From: a virus
IMG/VR virus record: IMGVR_UViG_3300045284_000404
Location: 1 to 50,495 of that record
Length of the DNA: 50,495 bases
Strand: one strand, 5' to 3'
In this document: positions 1 through 50,495 of the stretch, piece by piece
Layout of the letters: every line of letters starts with the position of its first letter
Position numbering within the stretch: the first letter of the stretch is position 1
Notes under the pieces: generated by a model
The model's input: only the letters and a program-made list of their open reading frames with translations
Database searches by the model: none
What the model was told of the DNA's origin: nothing
Made by a program: the position numbers and the translations under genes

Positions 1-19
1 CCGAAGGGCAGACTATCGT

Positions 20-126
20 GGTTGCAGGCTCTCGTTAGAGCACCCTATCTTGCAGGCTTCCGGACCTGGGGCCGGAACACAACCTGTGGGTTGTGCTCGC
101 GCCACGAGCGGCCTTGGAATGCAACC
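20..126 (+). ncRNA. Multi-hairpin structured RNA element, copy 1
   Basis: A 7-bp closing helix (GGTTGCA 20-26 with TGCAACC 120-126) encloses four hairpins. They are GCTCT/AGAGC (28-41), TTCCGG/CCGGAA (58-77), CACAACC/GGTTGTG with a TGTG loop (78-95) and CTCG/CGAG (96-108). A possible inner multiloop stem pairs CAGGC (53-57) with GCCTTG (111-116). Copy 2 differs at four of the 107 bases. One change gives a G-U pair in hairpin 1, one adds a U-A pair to hairpin 4, and two fall in loops or single strands. It is not a tRNA because there is no T-arm. It may be a small RNA or a structured leader; the function is unknown. Confidence 0.7.
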
Positions 127-136
127 AGGAGTCCCC

Positions 137-175
137 ATGATTGTACGGTTTCATACCGAGGAAAATAAATATTGA
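137..175 (+). CDS. 12-residue leader peptide ORF, copy 1
   Basis: The ORF encodes MIVRFHTEENKY and starts 10 bases after the RNA closing helix. A strong AGGAG ribosome site lies 5 bases before its ATG. The nucleotide sequence is identical in copy 2, which suggests constraint, although the surrounding non-coding DNA is also conserved. The TGA stop overlaps a TTGACA motif. It could be a translated leader that couples the RNA element to the downstream gene, or a chance ORF in conserved DNA. Confidence 0.45.
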   Translation: MIVRFHTEENKY

Positions 176-199
176 CATATTGCCCCATGTCTATAGAGT
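172..199 (+). promoter_or_regulatory. Possible promoter before the 195-aa gene
   Basis: A perfect TTGACA (172-177) is followed by TATAGA (192-197) at 14 bases or TAGAGT (194-199) at 16 bases. The spacing is shorter than the usual 17, so this is tentative. Both motifs are unchanged in copy 2 (TTGACA at 49675). Confidence 0.35.
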
Positions 200-201
200 G
201 A

Positions 202-225
202 TGTTGTGGCGATTGGCCACGAACA
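202..225 (+). promoter_or_regulatory. Hairpin before the ribosome binding site
   Basis: TGTT-GTGGC pairs with GCCAC-(G)-AACA around a short loop, ending just before the AAGGAG site of the 195-aa gene. In copy 2 the last C becomes U, giving a G-U pair, so the stem is kept. It could affect translation initiation. Confidence 0.4.
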
Positions 226-240
226 ACAAGGAGTAAGGAA

Positions 241-828
241 ATGTCGGTAGTCATTAAGTCGGAAGGCCAGTCCTTCGATCATTCCGCCGGTCACGTTGGT
301 GATGTGTCTTTCGAATTCCGCGTGGAGTCGGCAAGCATGAACGGACAGGTTTTGTCCAATGATGCCATTGAATATATCATCGAGTACGGCATTAAGCAGA
401 ACCTGACTGACGCATATGCCTCGGCGAAAATCACGGCGGAAAAGAAAGGACTCGTCTTGATTGACGTGGCTCGTGATTTGTTCGCGCGTCGACTCAAGGG
501 AATTTTGGATGGCACGCTTTCCATGCGGGACTCGGTATCGCCATTCGAGCGGATTGTGCATGAACTCGCAATGGCCGCATTCCGCAAGCAAGCCAAAATG
601 ACCTTCGCGGCGTTCGTGAAGTCGGTTGATAGCGAGGAAATTGCGCAAGCGGTTTTTGACAAGTTCGTAGCGGCCAATCGAGCCGAGTTCGAACGTGGCG
701 CGAATGAACGGATCGAGTTGAACAAGTCGATCAAAACGACTTCTTCGATTAATGATCTTCTTCAATCCGTCAAGGCCGAGCAGCCCGTGGCAACGACTGT
801 CATAAAGAAGAAAGGAAAGGCTGCATAG
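241..828 (+). CDS. Unknown 195-aa protein of the duplicated cassette, copy 1
   Basis: The ATG follows AAGGAG by 7 bases. The protein is roughly three-quarters identical by eye to the one at 49744-50340. The most conserved parts are the N-terminal GHVGDV block, the central YGIKQNLTD segment, the ARDLFARRL segment and the last 20 residues. It has no signal peptide or membrane segment and looks largely helical with a lysine-rich end. A weaker relative occurs at 42418-41789 and shares SN(D/E)A, NL and SPFE(R/K) positions. The gene is an isolated unit with its own leader RNA and downstream hairpin, suggesting independent, possibly strong, expression. No family function was recognised. Confidence 0.85.
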   Translation: MSVVIKSEGQSFDHSAGHVGDVSFEFRVESASMNGQVLSNDAIEYIIEYGIKQNLTDAYASAKITAEKKGLVLIDVARDLFARRLKGILDGTLSMRDSVSPFERIVHELAMAAFRKQAKMTFAAFVKSVDSEEIAQAVFDKFVAANRAEFERGANERIELNKSIKTTSSINDLLQSVKAEQPVATTVIKKKGKAA

Positions 829-840
829 TTAGCTAACTAA

Positions 841-878
841 TGATTAGCAGGCTAATGATTTAGTTAGCCTGCTAATCA
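841..878 (+). terminator. Terminator-like hairpin after cassette gene, copy 1
   Basis: A 15-bp perfect stem (841-855 with 864-878) has an 8-base loop and lies 13 bases after the stop codon. There is no clear U-tract, only TCTCCCTC. Copy 2 (50348-50379) shows a compensated C-G to G-C swap in the stem, so the hairpin itself is maintained. It probably ends the transcript or stabilises its 3' end. Confidence 0.65.
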
Positions 879-891
879 TCTCCCTCGCATA

Positions 892-1010
892 CTACCCAGG
901 GTTGCAGGCTTGGGTAGGGTGGGCGGGGACTTCGACTGACCGGGGCACCCCCCTCGTAGGGGGCCACGCAGCGGCGGCGCTTGCAAAAAGTTCGAAGCGC
1001 ACCAGTTGCT
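892..1010 (+). other. GC-rich structured non-coding element, copy 1
   Basis: This is the first part of the gene-free stretch 829-1242. It contains a 7-bp hairpin CTACCCA/TGGGTAG (892-917) whose loop carries GTTGCAGGCT, a motif also present twice in the RNA at 20-126. A CCCCC/GGGGG hairpin follows (about 949-964), then a G/C-rich run and a possible CTTCGA (930-935) with TCGAAG (992-997) pairing. Bases 892-989 are nearly identical in copy 2. From about 1010 to 1140 I see no gene and no clear motif. The element could be a structured RNA 3' end or a packaging/replication site. Confidence 0.5.
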
Positions 1011-1242: not shown

Positions 1243-2133
1243 ATGGACCTTGACCTGGATGAACTGGTAGCGCAGATTGGATTGCAGCTTCCTTCCGCGA
1301 GAGGACGACGTCCACGGGAGTCCTCTGTGCCTCTGGAGGTTGGAGAACCACGGCCAATAAGGGCCGAGGACGTGGTGGGGCAGAGCTCGAAGACCCTCCC
1401 AACCTCTACCCCACCATCTCTCCAAAAACTGCGGTCCCGGCACCATCAGCTCGCGCAGCAATTGTCCTCCGGGATGACCGATTTCCAGGTCTCGGTATCC
1501 CTCGGCTACAGTTTGAGCCGAATTTCCATCCTCAAGTCGGATCCAACGTTCCGCGAGCTGCTCTCCTATTACGAGAAACAGCACGAAGCGCTGCATCTGG
1601 ACGTTCAGGAGAGGTTGATCAACCTGGGTCTCGACAGTATTGAGACCCTTCAAAGCCGCCTCGACGACGATCCGGACGAGTTCAGCAATAAGGAACTCCT
1701 GGAGGTAGCGGAAATGGCCCTAGATCGGACAGGCCACGGAAAAAGTTCGACCGTATCTGTGATGCACGGCCTGGACGACGAGACTCACGCGCTTCTGATG
1801 GCCCAGCACGAGGCGCGGAAGCAAGGTCGGGTTCTAAATCTGTCCGATGGGGAGTTTATTGATGTTACAGGAGGCCAGGTTCCAGCTGAAGCTGGGAGCG
1901 AAGCGACCCCAACACATGCAAGTGCAGTCCTCGAACAAGGTCCGGACGATCTCGGCATTGCAGGACGCGAAATTCCTTACCAGCCGACCTCACTTCATCC
2001 CTCTTCCGAGACCCAAGAACGGCTCGACGATCGCGAAGGGGCTGGCGTATCAGAGAAAATGGAGCGATTGGATCAAGGTGCGCAGCTTTTGCTGTTTCCA
2101 ACATCGCCTATTCGCCGGGATCGAGAGGAATGA
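1243..2133 (+). CDS. terS: Terminase small subunit-like protein
   Basis: The product is 296 aa. ATG 1243 was chosen because AGAGGA precedes it; upstream in-frame TTG starts lack a site. Roughly residues 65-120 form a helix-turn-helix-like stretch (GMTDFQVSVSLGYSLS, then KSDPTFRELLSYYE) typical of small terminases, which bind phage DNA at the packaging site and recruit the large subunit. A helical segment follows (about 120-180). The C-terminal third is poorly structured and overlaps the next gene by about 270 bp in another frame. The GGAGC repeats upstream and a large terminase at 7881 support the call. Confidence 0.7.
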   Translation: MDLDLDELVAQIGLQLPSARGRRPRESSVPLEVGEPRPIRAEDVVGQSSKTLPTSTPPSLQKLRSRHHQLAQQLSSGMTDFQVSVSLGYSLSRISILKSDPTFRELLSYYEKQHEALHLDVQERLINLGLDSIETLQSRLDDDPDEFSNKELLEVAEMALDRTGHGKSSTVSVMHGLDDETHALLMAQHEARKQGRVLNLSDGEFIDVTGGQVPAEAGSEATPTHASAVLEQGPDDLGIAGREIPYQPTSLHPSSETQERLDDREGAGVSEKMERLDQGAQLLLFPTSPIRRDREE

Positions 2134-14049: not shown

Positions 14050-14083
14050 GTGGGACCGTTCACATAATGTGAATGAGCCCACT
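14050..14083 (+). promoter_or_regulatory. Dispersed palindromic element, site 1
   Basis: The core TTCACATAATGTGAA is a perfect palindrome, flanked here by GTGGG on the left and CCCAC on the right, so this copy is fully symmetric. It begins 7 bases after the capsid stop. Relatives occur at 26289, 42524 and 49478. It could be an operator, a promoter element, or in RNA form a stem that trims capsid transcripts. Confidence 0.55.
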
Positions 14084-14109
14084 TAACCTGGACTTCTGGG
14101 AGTACCCCG

Positions 14110-14739
14110 ATGAAGTTGGAAGATTTCCACTCGATGGTTAGCTTCGAGCTGAAGCGGGGTACTTCGCAGGACGCGATGATACCAGCATACGTGAAGCAGG
14201 CGGTCAGTTTTTTAGAGCGAAATGCTCCCCTGAAGTATATGGAAGAGATGGTAATGGTGCAGCTGGAGCCTGGGGACCAGCTGGTGGACTTCGTTTGGAG
14301 CTTTAGGAACTGGAGATACCTACGGTATGATGCGGACGGAGAGTGGTGCTATCTGCAGAAGAGAGATCCGCGGGAGGAATTGACTCCGGCGGGACCAGAG
14401 GCACCGACAAGATATTCCCAGATCGGGATGAGGTATATTCGGTTTAATGCACCCTGGAGGGGAACGGTGAACCTCCCCTTGGAGGGAATTGTTTATAAAT
14501 TTACTGATTGGCAAACGACGAGACCAGATTTCCGGCACTTTTTGCTGGAATTCGGTAGTGATCTGCTCCTCTACCAGACCATGTTAAGGATCGGGGTTGC
14601 GATTAAAGACCCTAGGTTGGACGCACTGTATCGGCCCGTCAGGGACGAGGCACTGAAGACATTCATGAGCATGGATACAGATGCGGAGTTTGATGGATCG
14701 ACAGATGACACAATGGTCTACGGGGGCATCTACGAGTAA
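14110..14739 (+). CDS. Head-tail connector/adaptor-like protein
   Basis: The 209-aa protein begins MKLEDFHSMVSFELKRGTSQ, then DAMIPAYVKQAVSFLERNAP, a helical opening typical of podovirus head-tail adaptors that bind under the portal. The middle is beta-rich (DQLVDFVWSFRNWRYLRYD). The C-terminus is helical and acidic. Position right after the capsid supports the assignment; sequence evidence alone is moderate. A 161-bp gap follows with no strong feature. Confidence 0.55.
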   Translation: MKLEDFHSMVSFELKRGTSQDAMIPAYVKQAVSFLERNAPLKYMEEMVMVQLEPGDQLVDFVWSFRNWRYLRYDADGEWCYLQKRDPREELTPAGPEAPTRYSQIGMRYIRFNAPWRGTVNLPLEGIVYKFTDWQTTRPDFRHFLLEFGSDLLLYQTMLRIGVAIKDPRLDALYRPVRDEALKTFMSMDTDAEFDGSTDDTMVYGGIYE

Positions 14740-14900
14740 GCCAGGGATCTGGTATCCAGGGTACTCTTTGGATCGGAAGATGCAAGGAGTGAAATCTCAT
14801 ACCCATATGGTCCCTTTGGGGTTTTGTGCGCTGGCGGTTATGCAGAGAAACCGGTATTTTTCTCTCGCGATAGCGGGTCGAGAGCGGAGCTTGCAATCCG

Positions 14901-17129
14901 ATGGTCTTTCAGCTTCTGAATAATATCAAGTTCTCACTAGCGGTCCCGATGGACCCAGGTGATCTCGAACTCGTCGTGATGGACGATGACCTTTCGGACG
15001 CAGAAAGGTACGATCCGACGAAGGTCTTGAGTCTCACCCTTGTGGGTGATGAAGAGTTGAATGACTACGAGATCGTCTATGCCGTCTCGAGGACCGGCAC
15101 TACCTTCGAGGTAACCCGAGGCGAGGAGACCACAACGGCTGGGAGCTGGCCAGCAGGGACGCAGGTAATTGCGGCGCTCACGAAAGGCGTCCTCGAGGGG
15201 ACGATCTCCGCGCCAACAGCGGCGGATCAGATCACCTATGAGGGAGGGAATTTCGGCACGGCTGGAACGGTCGAAGATACCCTGGATGACATGGGTGATG
15301 CCATTATCACTATGTCAGCGGATACGGACTACTACGACAGTGTGCAACAGAGAGTTGGTGGAGGCTTGTTCTCCGGCGGTGTCATCGATACTGTGAACCT
15401 CCGTTGGCAAGGTTCTGCTAAGAAATTCACCACGGCAGGGCTTGGCGTAGTTGTGAGCACCGAAGCGTCGATTGCTAAACCGACGGTCCCTCCGGACGTT
15501 GTAATCGCGCTTCGGTGCGCTGACATTACGAACTTCGGTTCGATTGTAGTGACGGCGTATAACACGGCTGTTCCGACGAGCACTATGGTCTGGAACATCG
15601 GTGCTGGAGCGATACCACAGAACAATGCGTGGCTGCTGGCCTACGGTGGAGCTGCGGATGCAGCCCTCAGTGGGAACCCTTCCGTCGATCTGCCCGATAA
15701 GATCAAGATCGACTTTAAGGACAATGGGACTGGGGTTCTCGCGGTCTCCATAAACCATGTGGACATTGTGCCGGTCAGGCAATCGTATTTGGGTAGCTTT
15801 ATCCGAGTGCTCTCGGACGCGGACTTTGACAAGGTAAATACCATTGCGAAGTACGGCTTCCAAGTCTCAGCTGTTATCACGGTTGAAGCGTTGGTGGCAG
15901 GTACTCTGAATGTCGGGAAGATCTCCGACGCTAGGCTCGATGGACACCGGTTTTATCTGACGAGCCCGGCGAACTTTAAGGCCCAGGCAGCGAACCAAGT
16001 GACAGTTAAGTTGTTCCAAGGCGTTCGGGAGTCCTTCAATAAGGGATTTGAGCCTTATGGCTGGGTCTACAATAATGCCTATAACGGACCCTTGGACCTT
16101 GATGCAAACACCACGGTTAGGGAGCTAGTGAGTCTGGCGTATCCAAGTGCTGTCGGAGTGGGGAAATTCCGGAGTGCAGTCGAAGTATACCGGTTCACAG
16201 ATCCCCTGTATGTGGCAGCGAATCTTGCCGATGCTACAGCGGTCCTCACGGGCGCAGATAAGAGGGCGATCAATATCGACCTTAGCGCACTCACTGTGGC
16301 GAACCTTGATACTCTCTATGCGGCGATCTTGACCTCGAGGAATTTCTACGTCACGACGCTGGATTACCAGAACGCGGACAACCTCAAGTCAGGTACTGTG
16401 GATCCGGCTCGACTCCCGATTGTCCCTGTGAATAAGGGCGGCACAGGAACCTCTGACCCTGTAGCTGCTGAGGCGTTCTTTGGGGTGGTTCCGATCGGTG
16501 TGCCACTGCCATTTGCCGGGGCGACAGCTCCAGCAGGATGGGTGCTCTGTGACGGACGGTTGCTCATCAGGACAACCTATCCTCGGCTCTTTGCGGTGAT
16601 CGGGACGGTTTTCGGGAGTTCTGGGGCGACGGACTTCAGGGTGCCTGACCTGCGGGGCTTCGTAGTGGCTGGCCGGGACAACATGGGGACCGGAGCGGCA
16701 GGAAGGCTCACGGTTATTGGGAGCGCGCTTGGCACCGTGGGTGGCGAGCAGAGCCACACTTTGAGTGTAGCTGAGATGCCGTCGCACAGTCATGGAGGCG
16801 TTACCGGAAACAACAATACTGATCACGTGCATGGGATCAACCTAAACACTGGCGGAGAGAGTGCTGCCCATGCGCACCTTACACCAATGTACGGTCGCTC
16901 CGATAGTGGCAGTCCTGTTGCTGGGTCATGGGCGCAGGGTGGTAGTGCCAACTCGTACGGAAATCAGGCTACCAGTGGACAGGACACAGGGCACGTTCAC
17001 AATGTCTCGGGAAACACCGGGAACAATACCACGGATCACACTCACAACATCACCGCTCAAGGCAGTGGAACGACGCACAACAATACGCAGCTGACAATGG
17101 TTCTGAACTGGATTATTAGAGCAGTATGA
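14901..17129 (+). CDS. Tail fibre with phage tail collar domain
   Basis: The 742-aa protein has an N-terminal virion-attachment part (about 1-85, with YEIVYAVSRTGTTFEVTRGE), a long beta-rich shaft, and a collar domain starting near residue 530. The collar carries PFAGATAPAGWVLCDGRLL, then FRVPDLRGFVVAG and MPSHSHGG, the pattern of Phage Tail Collar (PF07484). A His-rich end follows (DHVHGI, HAHLTP, DHTHNI), which may bind metal. It probably recognises host surface structures. It overlaps the next gene by 4 bases. Confidence 0.85.
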   Translation: MVFQLLNNIKFSLAVPMDPGDLELVVMDDDLSDAERYDPTKVLSLTLVGDEELNDYEIVYAVSRTGTTFEVTRGEETTTAGSWPAGTQVIAALTKGVLEGTISAPTAADQITYEGGNFGTAGTVEDTLDDMGDAIITMSADTDYYDSVQQRVGGGLFSGGVIDTVNLRWQGSAKKFTTAGLGVVVSTEASIAKPTVPPDVVIALRCADITNFGSIVVTAYNTAVPTSTMVWNIGAGAIPQNNAWLLAYGGAADAALSGNPSVDLPDKIKIDFKDNGTGVLAVSINHVDIVPVRQSYLGSFIRVLSDADFDKVNTIAKYGFQVSAVITVEALVAGTLNVGKISDARLDGHRFYLTSPANFKAQAANQVTVKLFQGVRESFNKGFEPYGWVYNNAYNGPLDLDANTTVRELVSLAYPSAVGVGKFRSAVEVYRFTDPLYVAANLADATAVLTGADKRAINIDLSALTVANLDTLYAAILTSRNFYVTTLDYQNADNLKSGTVDPARLPIVPVNKGGTGTSDPVAAEAFFGVVPIGVPLPFAGATAPAGWVLCDGRLLIRTTYPRLFAVIGTVFGSSGATDFRVPDLRGFVVAGRDNMGTGAAGRLTVIGSALGTVGGEQSHTLSVAEMPSHSHGGVTGNNNTDHVHGINLNTGGESAAHAHLTPMYGRSDSGSPVAGSWAQGGSANSYGNQATSGQDTGHVHNVSGNTGNNTTDHTHNITAQGSGTTHNNTQLTMVLNWIIRAV

Positions 17130-26288: not shown

Positions 26289-26321
26289 GTGGGACTATTC
26301 ACATAATGTGACCGTGGGATT
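26289..26321 (+). promoter_or_regulatory. Dispersed palindromic element, site 2
   Basis: GTGGGACTATTCACATAATG is followed by TGACCGTGGGATTTCAT. The core TCACATAATGTGA is palindromic and is flanked by direct GTGGGA repeats. It lies 6 bases after the 1269-aa gene and 27 bases before the lysis/membrane cluster, a natural place for transcription control. Confidence 0.55.
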
Positions 26322-41788: not shown

Positions 41789-42418
41789 TTATTCGGCCGC
41801 AGCCTCAACAGGCGGAGCGATTTCCTCCGCTTGCTTCGCAGCCTCTGCCTTCACGTCGAAGCCCTTGATGGACAGGCCAGCAAGAGAGTCGAGACGAGCC
41901 TTTGCAGCGGCCTCGACCTCTTCCTTGTTCGCGTCCAGAACGCGGGTGTACAGTGCGTCGTACTTTGCCCGCTCTTCCTTCTGCATCTTCGACGGCGAGA
42001 AGCCGTTGGCCTTGAGCGCCTTGTCCAGCATCTCGGTAACGATGTCCTCGACCGCCTTCTCGAAGGGGGACCGAGCACGGCCTGTGCGGATACCGAACTC
42101 ATAACTAGAAACGTACTCGTCGATTTGTTCCTGGAGTTCGGCGATCTGATCTTCCGACAGGGTGGTTGAGTCAGCTACTGGAGTCATCTGCTCGACCTTG
42201 GCCTCTTTGATCTGCTGATCAGTCCAGCCAGCCGCACGAAGCTTTGCCGCACGGACGACGGAGGCAAGGTTATTCCTGACGTTCTCCGCCAGTAGCTGGT
42301 TCATCGCGGAGGCTTCATTACTCTTGAGGGTGTAGCCCTCAGCATACGGCGAGTCGATGTTGAAGTCCACGCCTTGAATCATCAACCGCTGTCTTTTTCC
42401 ATTCAGTTCGTTAGCCAT
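41789..42418 (-). CDS. Early protein related to the duplicated cassette protein
   Basis: ATG 42418 with AAAGGAAC upstream gives 209 aa; a longer start at 42487 would run through the promoter. Segments DFNIDSPYAEGYTLKSNEA, NVRNNLASVVRAAK and SPFEKAVEDIVTEML align loosely with EFRVESASMNGQVLSNDA, GIKQNLTDAYASAK and SPFERIVHELAMAA in the cassette proteins. The middle has an acidic insertion (LSEDQIAELQEQIDEYV). It has its own promoter and a terminator-like hairpin, like the cassette genes. Function unknown. Confidence 0.75.
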   Translation of the reverse strand: MANELNGKRQRLMIQGVDFNIDSPYAEGYTLKSNEASAMNQLLAENVRNNLASVVRAAKLRAAGWTDQQIKEAKVEQMTPVADSTTLSEDQIAELQEQIDEYVSSYEFGIRTGRARSPFEKAVEDIVTEMLDKALKANGFSPSKMQKEERAKYDALYTRVLDANKEEVEAAAKARLDSLAGLSIKGFDVKAEAAKQAEEIAPPVEAAAE

Positions 42419-42458
42419 TTTCAGTTCCTTTCTAGAGGGAAAATCCCCCAACGGATCG

Positions 42459-42487
42459 AATATATGGCAATCCGCCGGGGTTGTCAA
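42459..42487 (-). promoter_or_regulatory. Sigma70 promoter of the early paralog gene
   Basis: Read leftward, TTGACA (42487-42482), a 17-base spacer and TATATT (42464-42459) precede the 209-aa gene start by about 40 bases. It is the best consensus promoter in the window. Confidence 0.8.
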
Positions 42488-42523: not shown

Positions 42524-42555
42524 GTGGGCCGGATCACATCATGTTACCGTGGGAC
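42524..42555 (+). promoter_or_regulatory. Dispersed palindromic element, site 3
   Basis: GTGGGCCGGATCACATCATG then TTACCGTGGGACTTTA, the same core (TCACAT-N-ATGT) and flanking GTGGGA as sites 2 and 4. It lies upstream of the leftward promoter at 42487 and 7 bases beyond the stop of the Cro/CI-type gene. Given as rightward because its flank matches the others in that direction. Confidence 0.55.
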
Positions 42556-42561
42556 TTTATG

Positions 42562-42807
42562 CTAGGCTACATCCTCCAGTCTTATCCTAACCCGCAGAGC
42601 CTTCATCAGCGGGAACAGTGTTGTAGGTCGGGGCCACCGAGTCTTGCCAGAGGCAATATTTCCGATGGTGGCCTGAGCAACGCCCACGGCTAGCGCGATC
42701 TGCCCCTGGGTCCGCCCATCCATGTGTATCCGCTCTCGGATCTCCTCGAGGACTGCCTCGGCACTAGTAAAGGTCCGAGGCTTTCGCATCTTAATGACGT
42801 TGTTCAT
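42562..42807 (-). CDS. Cro/CI-type helix-turn-helix regulator
   Basis: The 81-aa protein contains RTQGQIALAVGVAQATIGNI, ASGKTRWPRPTTLFPLMKAL, the five-helix XRE pattern. It may bind the palindromic elements, one of which ends 7 bases from its own stop; this link is speculative. It is coupled to the gene upstream by an ATGA overlap. Confidence 0.75.
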   Translation of the reverse strand: MNNVIKMRKPRTFTSAEAVLEEIRERIHMDGRTQGQIALAVGVAQATIGNIASGKTRWPRPTTLFPLMKALRVRIRLEDVA

Positions 42808-48033: not shown

Positions 48034-48263
48034 AGGTGAGTCCTTTCCTCGAGCACTGGCATCCGGGTAACTGTGCCAGTCTGGACTAAGGTGTCGTCGA
48101 GGCGAAGTTCACAGATCCGAGCAAAGCGATCAGTGTCCCATTCAATGATTGGCTTTACCGATGTGTTGGAGTAGGTGAGCTTCAGAGAAGCCTCAACTAG
48201 CTCCCAATCCTCGAAGAGGTAGTTTTCGTCTGCAATGTGGACTAGATAGAATGCCCTGGTCAT
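48030..48263 (-). CDS. Hypothetical protein, 77 aa
   Basis: The protein begins MTRAFYLVHIADENYLFEDW, followed by SVKPIIEWDTDRFARICELR. Mixed alpha/beta, soluble. Overlaps upstream and downstream genes by 4 bases. Confidence 0.55.
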   Translation of the reverse strand: MTRAFYLVHIADENYLFEDWELVEASLKLTYSNTSVKPIIEWDTDRFARICELRLDDTLVQTGTVTRMPVLEERTHL

Positions 48264-48661
48264 GCCCTTTTTCCTTTCTTGTCCAGCTCCGCGAGGATTT
48301 CTGCCATGTTTGGCTTGACGTTTAGGCCAAGCCTCGCGTACATTTTATCCACAGGAAGGAATTGCAATTCCTGCACTTCCTTCTTCCGTTTAGCTGCAAG
48401 TAATTCAGGTGATGTTGGGGGAATCCGAGTCACCGCGAATGCGCCACTGGCGAGTAGGGCCTTGACATCGATGCTGCTGGCGTAGAAGTTGGCTGCCTCG
48501 CCCTTGCCCTCGGCGATCCGCTTATGGTACTCTGCTCGGCCGATGCTGGCCATTTCCTCGTGGTCCATTGGCCTGGACCACCGGTCTGGTTTGCCCTCTG
48601 TCTTAATGAGGAATTGCCATTTGTTCGATGCTGGATCGAACCTGCTAGTGAAGTAGATCAT
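48260..48661 (-). CDS. Hypothetical protein, 133 aa; first gene of a promoter unit
   Basis: The protein begins MIYFTSRFDPASNKWQFLIK and ends in a Lys-rich helix (AEILAELDKKGKRA). AAGGAG precedes the ATG by 6 bases. It is the first gene behind the promoter at 48735 and its structured leader, so it heads a long early transcript. Function unknown. Confidence 0.6.
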   Translation of the reverse strand: MIYFTSRFDPASNKWQFLIKTEGKPDRWSRPMDHEEMASIGRAEYHKRIAEGKGEAANFYASSIDVKALLASGAFAVTRIPPTSPELLAAKRKKEVQELQFLPVDKMYARLGLNVKPNMAEILAELDKKGKRA

Positions 48662-48684
48662 GATGCACTCCTTGTTGTTCCGCT

Positions 48685-49211: not shown

Positions 49212-49247
49212 GGTGAGTCTCCTTGGTGCTTGTGTGGTGATCATCTT

Positions 49248-49276
49248 ATAATAATCCTAATTCATGTACACCTCAA
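49248..49276 (-). promoter_or_regulatory. Leftward promoter with mirrored operator
   Basis: Read leftward, TTGAGG (49276-49271), a 17-base spacer and TATTAT (49253-49248; 5 of 6). The spacer contains the GTGTACATGAAT arm that is repeated in inverted orientation at 49419-49432. Confidence 0.6.
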
Positions 49277-49432
49277 GTGCAGCTGGGTAGGGCTGACCGG
49301 GAAGTGGGCTCTAAGGCTGTGCCCGCCATAGTAGTAGAAAAAAAAAAAAAAAAAATAAACTCTCACTGATCGCCGCTAACACTCGTCGCCGCACGCCAGA
49401 GTCCGTGGGACTGTCTTTAGGTGTACATGAAT
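49260..49432. repeat. Inverted repeat linking divergent promoters
   Basis: ATTCATGTACACCT (49260-49273) and AGGTGTACATGAAT (49419-49432) are perfect 14-bp inverted copies 145 bases apart. Outside them ATCCTAA (49254-49260) and TTAGGAT (49438-49444) also match, spaced differently. Each arm falls in the spacer of an outward-facing promoter-like sequence. The interval has no gene; it carries the 18-base A tract and a GC-rich part. It is a likely operator pair or origin-type region. Confidence 0.6.
49338..49355 (+). other. 18-base A tract
   Basis: A single uninterrupted run of 18 A lies in the gene-free region 49212-49639, between the two inverted arms. Such tracts bend or open DNA and also cause length errors in sequencing. 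It could be part of an origin or promoter-enhancing element. Confidence 0.6.
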
Positions 49433-49444
49433 AAGCTTTAGGAT
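49416..49444 (+). promoter_or_regulatory. Possible rightward promoter with mirrored operator
   Basis: TTTAGG (49416-49421), 17 bases, TAGGAT (49439-49444). Both hexamers are imperfect (4 of 6 for the -10), but the spacer carries the same GTGTACATGAAT sequence as the leftward promoter. It faces the RNA-containing cassette copy 2. Confidence 0.4.
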
Positions 49445-49477
49445 GATAGAAGCACCCTGTGCGCACCTGCAGGCTAA

Positions 49478-49510
49478 GTGGGACCATTCACATTATGTTA
49501 CCGTGGGACA
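49478..49510 (+). promoter_or_regulatory. Dispersed palindromic element, site 4
   Basis: GTGGGACCATTCACATTATG then TTACCGTGGGACA. It lies immediately upstream of cassette copy 2 and is absent before copy 1. Beyond the palindrome TTCACA at a 17-19 base distance from TAGACT-like sequences gives a weak promoter reading, so it may be an operator or promoter. Confidence 0.55.
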
Positions 49511-49522
49511 TTAGACTATCGT

Positions 49523-49629
49523 GGTTGCAGGCTTTCGCTAGAGCACCCTACCTTGCAGGCTTCCGGACCTGGGGCCGGAACACAACCTGTGGGTTGTGCT
49601 CGTGCCACGAGCGGCCTTGGAATGCAACC
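49523..49629 (+). ncRNA. Multi-hairpin structured RNA element, copy 2
   Basis: Same architecture and length (107 nt) as copy 1: closing helix 49523-49529 with 49623-49629 and four internal hairpins. Hairpin 1 is GCTTT/AGAGC (one G-U pair) and hairpin 4 is CTCGT/ACGAG, one base pair longer than in copy 1. The changes fit selection on structure. A shorter degenerate relative of its 5' part (GCACCCTGTGCGCACCTGCA) lies at about 49452-49471. Confidence 0.7.
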
Positions 49630-49639
49630 AGGAGTCCCC

Positions 49640-49678
49640 ATGATTGTACGGTTTCATACCGAGGAAAATAAATATTGA
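49640..49678 (+). CDS. 12-residue leader peptide ORF, copy 2
   Basis: Identical in sequence and spacing to the ORF at 137-175 (MIVRFHTEENKY) with AGGAG five bases before the ATG. The TGA again overlaps TTGACA. Confidence 0.45.
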   Translation: MIVRFHTEENKY

Positions 49679-49743
49679 CATATTGCCCCATGTCTATAGA
49701 GTGATGTTGTGGCGATTGGCCATGAACAAGAAAGGGAAATGAA

Positions 49744-50340
49744 ATGACTACAGTTGTTAAGTCTGATGGTTGGTCTTTTGATCACGCGACAGGCCACGTT
49801 GGCGATGTCACGTTTGAATTCAACGTTGACTCGGCCGTGTTGAACGGACAGGTTCTGTCCAACGAGGCAATCGAGTACATTGTGGAATATGGCATCAAGC
49901 AGAACCTAACGGACTGCTATGCCTCGGCGAAAGTCACGGCGGAAAAGAAAGACCTAGTCCTTATCGATGTGGCCCGTGATTTGTTCGCACGGCGGCTCCG
50001 TGGCATTCTTGATGGTACGCTTTCCATGCGAGACTCGTTGTCGCCAAAGAAGCGGATTGTGAATGAAATTGCAATGGTAGCATTCCGCAAACTCATCAAG
50101 ATGACGTGGAAGAAATTTGTGGAGTCGCTTGATAGCGAGGAAATTGCACAAGCCGTCTTTGACAAGTTCATCGCGGAAAACATCACCGAGTTCGAGCGTG
50201 CCGCAGATGAGCGGATTGAGATGAGCAAGTCCATCAAGACGAAGACTTCTTCGATCAGTGACTTGCTTCAATCCGTCAAGGCCGAGCAGCCCGTGGCAAC
50301 GACTGTCATCAAAGGAGGTAAGGGCAAAAAGGTTGCCTAA
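49744..50340 (+). CDS. Unknown 198-aa protein of the duplicated cassette, copy 2
   Basis: AAAGG lies 7 bases before the ATG. The protein begins MTTVVKSDGWSFDHATGHVG and shares long blocks with the 195-aa copy: EYGIKQNLTD, DVARDLFARRL, GILDGTLSMRDS, DSEEIAQAVFDKF and the shared end VKAEQPVATTVIK. Differences cluster around residues 110-130 and 145-165. The copy has kept its frame and its end almost unchanged, so both copies are probably used. Function unknown. Confidence 0.85.
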   Translation: MTTVVKSDGWSFDHATGHVGDVTFEFNVDSAVLNGQVLSNEAIEYIVEYGIKQNLTDCYASAKVTAEKKDLVLIDVARDLFARRLRGILDGTLSMRDSLSPKKRIVNEIAMVAFRKLIKMTWKKFVESLDSEEIAQAVFDKFIAENITEFERAADERIEMSKSIKTKTSSISDLLQSVKAEQPVATTVIKGGKGKKVA

Positions 50341-50347
50341 CTAATAG

Positions 50348-50379
50348 TTAGGAGGCTAATCATTAGGTTAGCCTCCTAA
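50348..50379 (+). terminator. Terminator-like hairpin after cassette gene, copy 2
   Basis: TTAGGAGGCTAA pairs with TTAGCCTCCTAA around an 8-base loop. Relative to copy 1 one C-G pair has become G-C, so both sides changed together. No strong U-tract follows (TCATTTCCC). Confidence 0.65.
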
Positions 50380-50397
50380 TCATTTCCCTGCCCTATG

Positions 50398-50495
50398 CTA
50401 CCCAGGGTTGCAGGCTTGGGTAGGGTGGGCGGGGACTTCGACTGACCGGGGCACCCCCCTCGTAGGGGGCCACGCAGCGGCGGCGCTTGCAAAAA
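50398..50495 (+). other. GC-rich structured non-coding element, copy 2
   Basis: Begins with CTACCCA/TGGGTAG hairpin (50398-50423) with GTTGCAGGCT in its loop, then the CCCCC/GGGGG hairpin, and runs to the window end. It is nearly identical to 892-989. Confidence 0.5.

Follow-up and report, generated by a model that had tools for sequence, protein, structure and literature searches.

Why should a linear phage record carry the same 1-kb unit at each of its ends, in two versions that are clearly not identical? We addressed this question for an IMG/VR virus record classed as linear, whose full length of 50,495 bases is referred to here as the window. Alignment, together with blastn of the contig ends, showed that 10-989 and 49513-50495 form a single collinear direct repeat with 83% identity over 985 nt (Table 1), in agreement with an earlier sequence-only reading that had described a unit of about 980 bp at both ends in the same orientation. 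That reading took the units for a diverged tandem cassette of structured RNA, leader ORF and conserved protein, made up of old paralogs and not of terminal redundancy; its observation was confirmed, and its interpretation was supported only in part. As set out below, the repeated 1-kb block is most likely a packaging end with one fast-changing gene, a neighbour of the small terminase gene (terS) in many phages, and not a new RNA-controlled cassette. No tRNA was found within the window.

Table 1. Features of the two terminal units and of their surroundings in the window.
Feature	Position	Strand	Remarks
Left-end copy of terminal unit	1..989	+	From alignment; clear homology to right copy starts at 10
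5' noncoding block, left	20..128	+	Possible long imperfect hairpin; fold z -2.7, reverse complement z -2.95
12-codon ORF, left (putative)	137..175	+	MIVRFHTEENKY; AGGAG ahead of ATG
Sigma-70-like promoter, left (predicted)	172..199	+	TTGACA-16-TAGAGT; 10/12 consensus matches
Terminal-unit gene, left version	241..828	+	195 aa; terS-linked family
Palindrome 3' of gene, left	840..879	.	Perfect; 16-nt arms
GC-rich block, left	892..989	.	98 nt, copies identical; C6-G5 hairpin at 948-963; predicted terminase cut after 989; Kuura terminus context
Small terminase gene (terS)	1243..2133	+	Homolog of Kuura small terminase; start predicted from G002
Distant paralog of terminal-unit protein	41789..42487	-	Family A6; replication module; 70 IMG/VR loci
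Poly(A) run	49338..49355	+	Sole poly(A)/poly(T) run of at least 10 in the record; outside the unit
Palindrome-centred repeated motif	49478..49508	+	GTGGGACNNTTCACATNATGTNACCGTGGGA; one of four sites
Right-end copy of terminal unit	49502..50495	+	Clear homology starts at 49513; ends on last record base; right boundary corresponds to Kuura terminal-repeat end
5' noncoding block, right	49523..49631	+	Fold z -2.0
12-codon ORF, right (putative)	49640..49678	+	Identical to left in sequence
Sigma-70-like promoter, right (predicted)	49675..49702	+	Consensus match
Terminal-unit gene, right version	49744..50340	+	198 aa
Palindrome 3' of gene, right	50343..50384	.	One compensating C-G to G-C change relative to left
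GC-rich block, right	50398..50495	.	Right copy; ends at predicted cut

The left copy occupies the record from base 1-10 and the right copy runs to its last base; the two stand at opposite ends of the record, and neither lies within a tandem array in it. The divergence between them is concentrated in the coding part, as had been noted from the sequence. The noncoding DNA upstream of the gene is 96-98% identical between copies (four differing sites in 10-219 and six further ones in 220-237) and the last 98 nt are identical, whereas the two proteins have 152 of 195 residues in common (78%). Third codon positions hold 78 of the 135 nucleotide differences between the gene versions, and by the NG86 method dN was about 0.16, dS about 0.90 and dN/dS about 0.18. 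The two ORFs are real coding sequence under selection; both versions were selected as proteins, now or until recently, and the same pattern means that the copy differences are not sequencing error. Homology breaks off sharply at 10/49513, and the sequence upstream of the right copy (TGGGACATT) is unlike bases 1-9 (CCGAAGGGC), a mismatch that suggests a true junction. The 98 nt that the ends share might point to a contig broken at a de Bruijn k-mer overlap, but no single k fits both ends and this account was set aside. We note that TTGCAGGCT occurs six times in the record (22, 50, 902, 49525, 49553 and 50408), three times per unit and never outside the units, against 0.44 occurrences expected; a protein may bind the terminal unit at these repeats.

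How the ends of the window belong together is shown by G001 and G002, relatives that come from a single metagenome and whose large terminase is 68% and 78% identical, respectively. In whole-window tblastn, G002 presented homologs of the right half of the window (e.g., 48263-48682), then one copy of the terminal-unit gene (14649-15230), then the homolog of 1243-2133, and G001 has a single gene copy in the same place. Since the left and right flanks meet around one copy in G002, both window ends are, as judged from gene order, one and the same slot adjoining terS. Caulobacter phage Kuura, an isolated relative, has direct terminal repeats of 606 bp as mapped by PhageTerm (PMC9959647), and the ends of OQ067476 carry an exact 606-nt repeat directly upstream of terS. 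The right end of Kuura reads C-run/TTGG/G-run...CACTGTATA^ATGGCACAC, with ATGGCACAC following in the interior copy. The corresponding context in the window is CCCCCCTCGTAGGGGG...CTTGCAAAAA^GTTCGAAGCGCACCAGTT, with GTTCGAAGCGCACCAGTT following in the left copy, and the right copy and the record both stop after CAAAAA. The motif takes the form CCCCCCGTAGGGGGG-ATTGT-CACTGAAAAATTGCACACCAGTT in G002 and GGGGGGTTTACCCCCC-AGCAC-CACTGCTAAATTGCACACAACTT in G001; the match thus involves only four phages, with a gap needed in the window.

The hairpin and GC-rich element described earlier were both upheld, the palindromes 3' of the gene being well beyond chance (z -6.5 on the left and z -4.7 on the right). 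C/G hairpins of five or more C and five or more G number two in the window (one per unit), one in G001 (in the slot), two in G002 (the slot holding one) and one in G046 (adjoining terS), and those of Kuura lie in its terminal repeats only; among the more distant contigs, most have none. In view of this distribution and of the Kuura terminus match, the GC-rich element is a good terminase-site candidate, and the unit is very probably a terminal-repeat (concatemer-junction) region. Among the marks of a genome end of the Kuura/T7 type, a direct repeat is present at both record ends, and the position relative to terS and the sequence context of the right end are those of the mapped Kuura terminus; the two copies are not identical (83% overall, 78% in the protein). 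The block fills the slot of Kuura's mapped terminal repeat, and the earlier exclusion of terminal redundancy is not supported.

On the far side of the gene from terS, 12 of 16 gene-carrying contigs have a poly(A)/(T) run of at least 10, with A on the terS strand, which is usually the sole such run in its genome. Besides the window, such sites lie in G002 (14199), G042 (45997), G039 (31113) and Kuura (43141), where poly(A) precedes the right repeat by 55 nt, and T-runs were seen in G046, G047, G043, G029, G038, G037 and G025. Such a run could be a marker of the left end or of an origin. In the window, the tract is flanked by an inverted repeat (49236-49277 with 49415-49456; core of 26 nt, 85% complementarity). 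An intergenic motif, GTGGG..TTCACATNATGTGA, is present four times (14050-14087, 26289-26319, 42524-42554 and 49478-49508) and twice in G002; its long form is not expected at all by chance. This palindrome-centred motif lies upstream of both the 41789-42487 gene and the right-end unit, and 42562-42807 (-) codes for a small HTH protein. The four sites are possibly an operator set.

The terminal-unit protein had no significant profile match in Pfam or PHROGs and no match among 50,697 phage records, and the protein alignment retrieved no relative from bacterial or archaeal genomes. Of 34 phage records searched with a profile built on six members, 11 contained relatives. Beyond the window, the gene family is represented in 15 contigs, part of them with weak scores (G038, G037 and G025), and all 14 contigs with both genes have terS at a distance of 0.7-1.8 kb from it, in either orientation. 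Among 12 long contigs, 7 had the gene within 2 kb of an end (1.1 expected), an excess that assembly breaks at poly(A) tracts may explain in part. Profile-profile comparison with the replication-module family A6, marginal in single-sequence searches, gave an hhalign probability of 90.7 (E 1.3e-6, single comparison), which by sequence profile makes the two distant paralogs with a common ancestor. The AlphaFold2 model of the right version had a mean pLDDT of 62, and Foldseek found no meaningful match to it in the PDB (best E 2.7). We infer an accessory protein of DNA metabolism or end processing, or else one expressed early: DNA metabolism is suggested by the paralogy, and end processing or early expression by the position. 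One member, G037, was considered as a precedent for side-by-side versions and dropped, as its positions 142-1945, at the left end of the contig, are a 99% identical inverted pair of the gene, either a chimeric assembly or a hairpin-ended intermediate.

Taken together, these data suggest, with a probability of roughly 55%, that the unit is a Kuura-like terminal repeat of ~990 bp whose copies differ because two haplotypes were assembled at opposite ends. A linear, Kuura-like podophage genome would have one unit at each end, with the direct terminal repeat at the concatemer junction. Terminase would recognise the C/G-hairpin block beside terS on the concatemer and cut after ...GCTTGCAAAAA to give the right end, and the left end would form ~1 kb farther upstream, on the downstream side of the poly(A) tract. 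In T7-type packaging the junction is duplicated; here the unit would be copied and so be present at both ends of each virion genome, with its single gene driven by its own sigma-70-like promoter. Two co-existing haplotypes of the terminal locus, assembled at opposite ends, would account for the differing copies, in which case the right flank would join the left version, or the right version would join GTTCGAAGCG. A diverged gene beside flanks of 96-100% identity is what two close strains with swapped alleles are expected to show, and the single gene version in each relative, combined with the near-identical flanks, favours haplotypes. Several points weigh against this. The terminus match is limited to four phages and requires a gap in the window, the C/G hairpin was not seen in most of the remoter contigs, the mismatch of bases 1-9 suggests a true junction, and the nearness of contig ends to the slot may be due in part to breaks at poly(A) tracts. 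Genuine terminal repeats derive from a single junction and stay identical, so that something further must account for the copy difference; in T5, a change introduced into the repeat turned up in both copies (PMC8108384). A strict two-strain model also predicts each allele at both ends, and one allele per contig end is not readily explained. Our claim is that the region is the terminal slot and functions as one, and does not extend to the record showing a normal repeat pair.

It is also conceivable, if rather doubtful, that both versions reside in one genome, either as a tandem-duplicated diverged unit (right then left), formed for example when two genomes were joined end to end, or as non-identical terminal repeats with the cut between them; in a true tandem junction, ...GCTTGCAAAAA would run into CCGAAGGGCAGACT. 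The clean passage of the record from unit edge to unit edge, the sharp stop of homology, the nine dissimilar first bases and the evidence that both versions are selected fit such a genome. However, each gene-carrying relative examined has one version, recombination should remove a tandem repeat whose copies are nearly identical over about 300 nt, the T5 repeat edit was recovered in both copies (PMC8108384), and 96-100% flank identity at a dS of 0.9 needs concerted evolution. Old paralogs, as proposed from the sequence alone, are possible but not the favoured reading. A shade less probable is the stable presence in one phage genome of terminal repeats that are not identical, or of a tandem copy of the unit that has diverged at the packaging junction, with two selected versions and homogenised cis-acting flanks; two versions sharing one genome would contradict the expectation that replication keeps terminal repeats identical.

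We consider it improbable that the repeat is purely an assembly overlap, in which a genome that is circular or permuted, and has no terminal repeat, was left with two strain versions of an internal locus at its ends. G002 did assemble straight across the slot, and imperfect end overlaps occur elsewhere (e.g., 273 nt at 97.8% in G010 and 127 nt at 90% in G043), but such an overlap does not predict a right edge at a site matching the Kuura terminus.

The structured RNA fared least well. The 109-nt fold lies just 2-2.7 sd below shuffles, with the opposite strand of the left copy equally low, and none of its 38 pairs shows a two-sided change between the left and right copies. Rfam covariance models gave no credible match at gathering or permissive thresholds, and an exact 28-mer spanning the RNA/ORF junction had no match in IMG/VR. 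A covariance model of the block, of little reach given its two near-identical training sequences, matched only the two window copies in 477 kb including relatives. An obligate unit of RNA and gene finds no support, the gene being present in G012, G017 and others of its 15 contigs; of the two ways in which RNA and gene could part, RNA without gene and gene without RNA, the second was found, within the reach of this model, in G001 and G002. The 12-codon ORF and its AGGAG exist, but a leader role is unsupported: the promoter match overlaps the stop codon of the ORF, so that the gene can be transcribed without the 5' block or the ORF. Strong conservation of the 5' block is equally expected of packaging or end-formation DNA. 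An old tandem cassette in which RNA and leader ORF control the downstream gene is therefore very unlikely, even though both elements are nearly unchanged between copies beside a diverged gene, because transcripts from this promoter would lack them and the RNA shows neither a distinctive fold nor covariation.

An apparent RNA cassette is thereby recast, most likely, as the packaging end in a group of uncultured phages, ordered as poly(A) run, left end, gene, palindrome, C/G hairpin, cut and terS, and the locus defines an undescribed terS-tied protein family absent from Pfam and PHROGs. The closest parallel is the isolated phage Kuura, which resembles the window in gene order, in a repeat directly upstream of terS, in a C/G hairpin ahead of the right terminus and in a poly(A) run ahead of the right repeat. 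It differs in that its repeats are 606 bp long, are identical copies and contain a small leftward gene, and a profile search of Kuura gave no match to the terminal-unit protein family. T7 likewise has a non-permuted genome with direct terminal repeats (PMC3896407), although T7-like repeats are a few hundred bp. Genes inside direct terminal repeats are also found in T5 and phiCbK (PMC8108384, PMC3556154), which we liken to the window by layout, their repeats being about 10 kb long, with many genes and identical copies.
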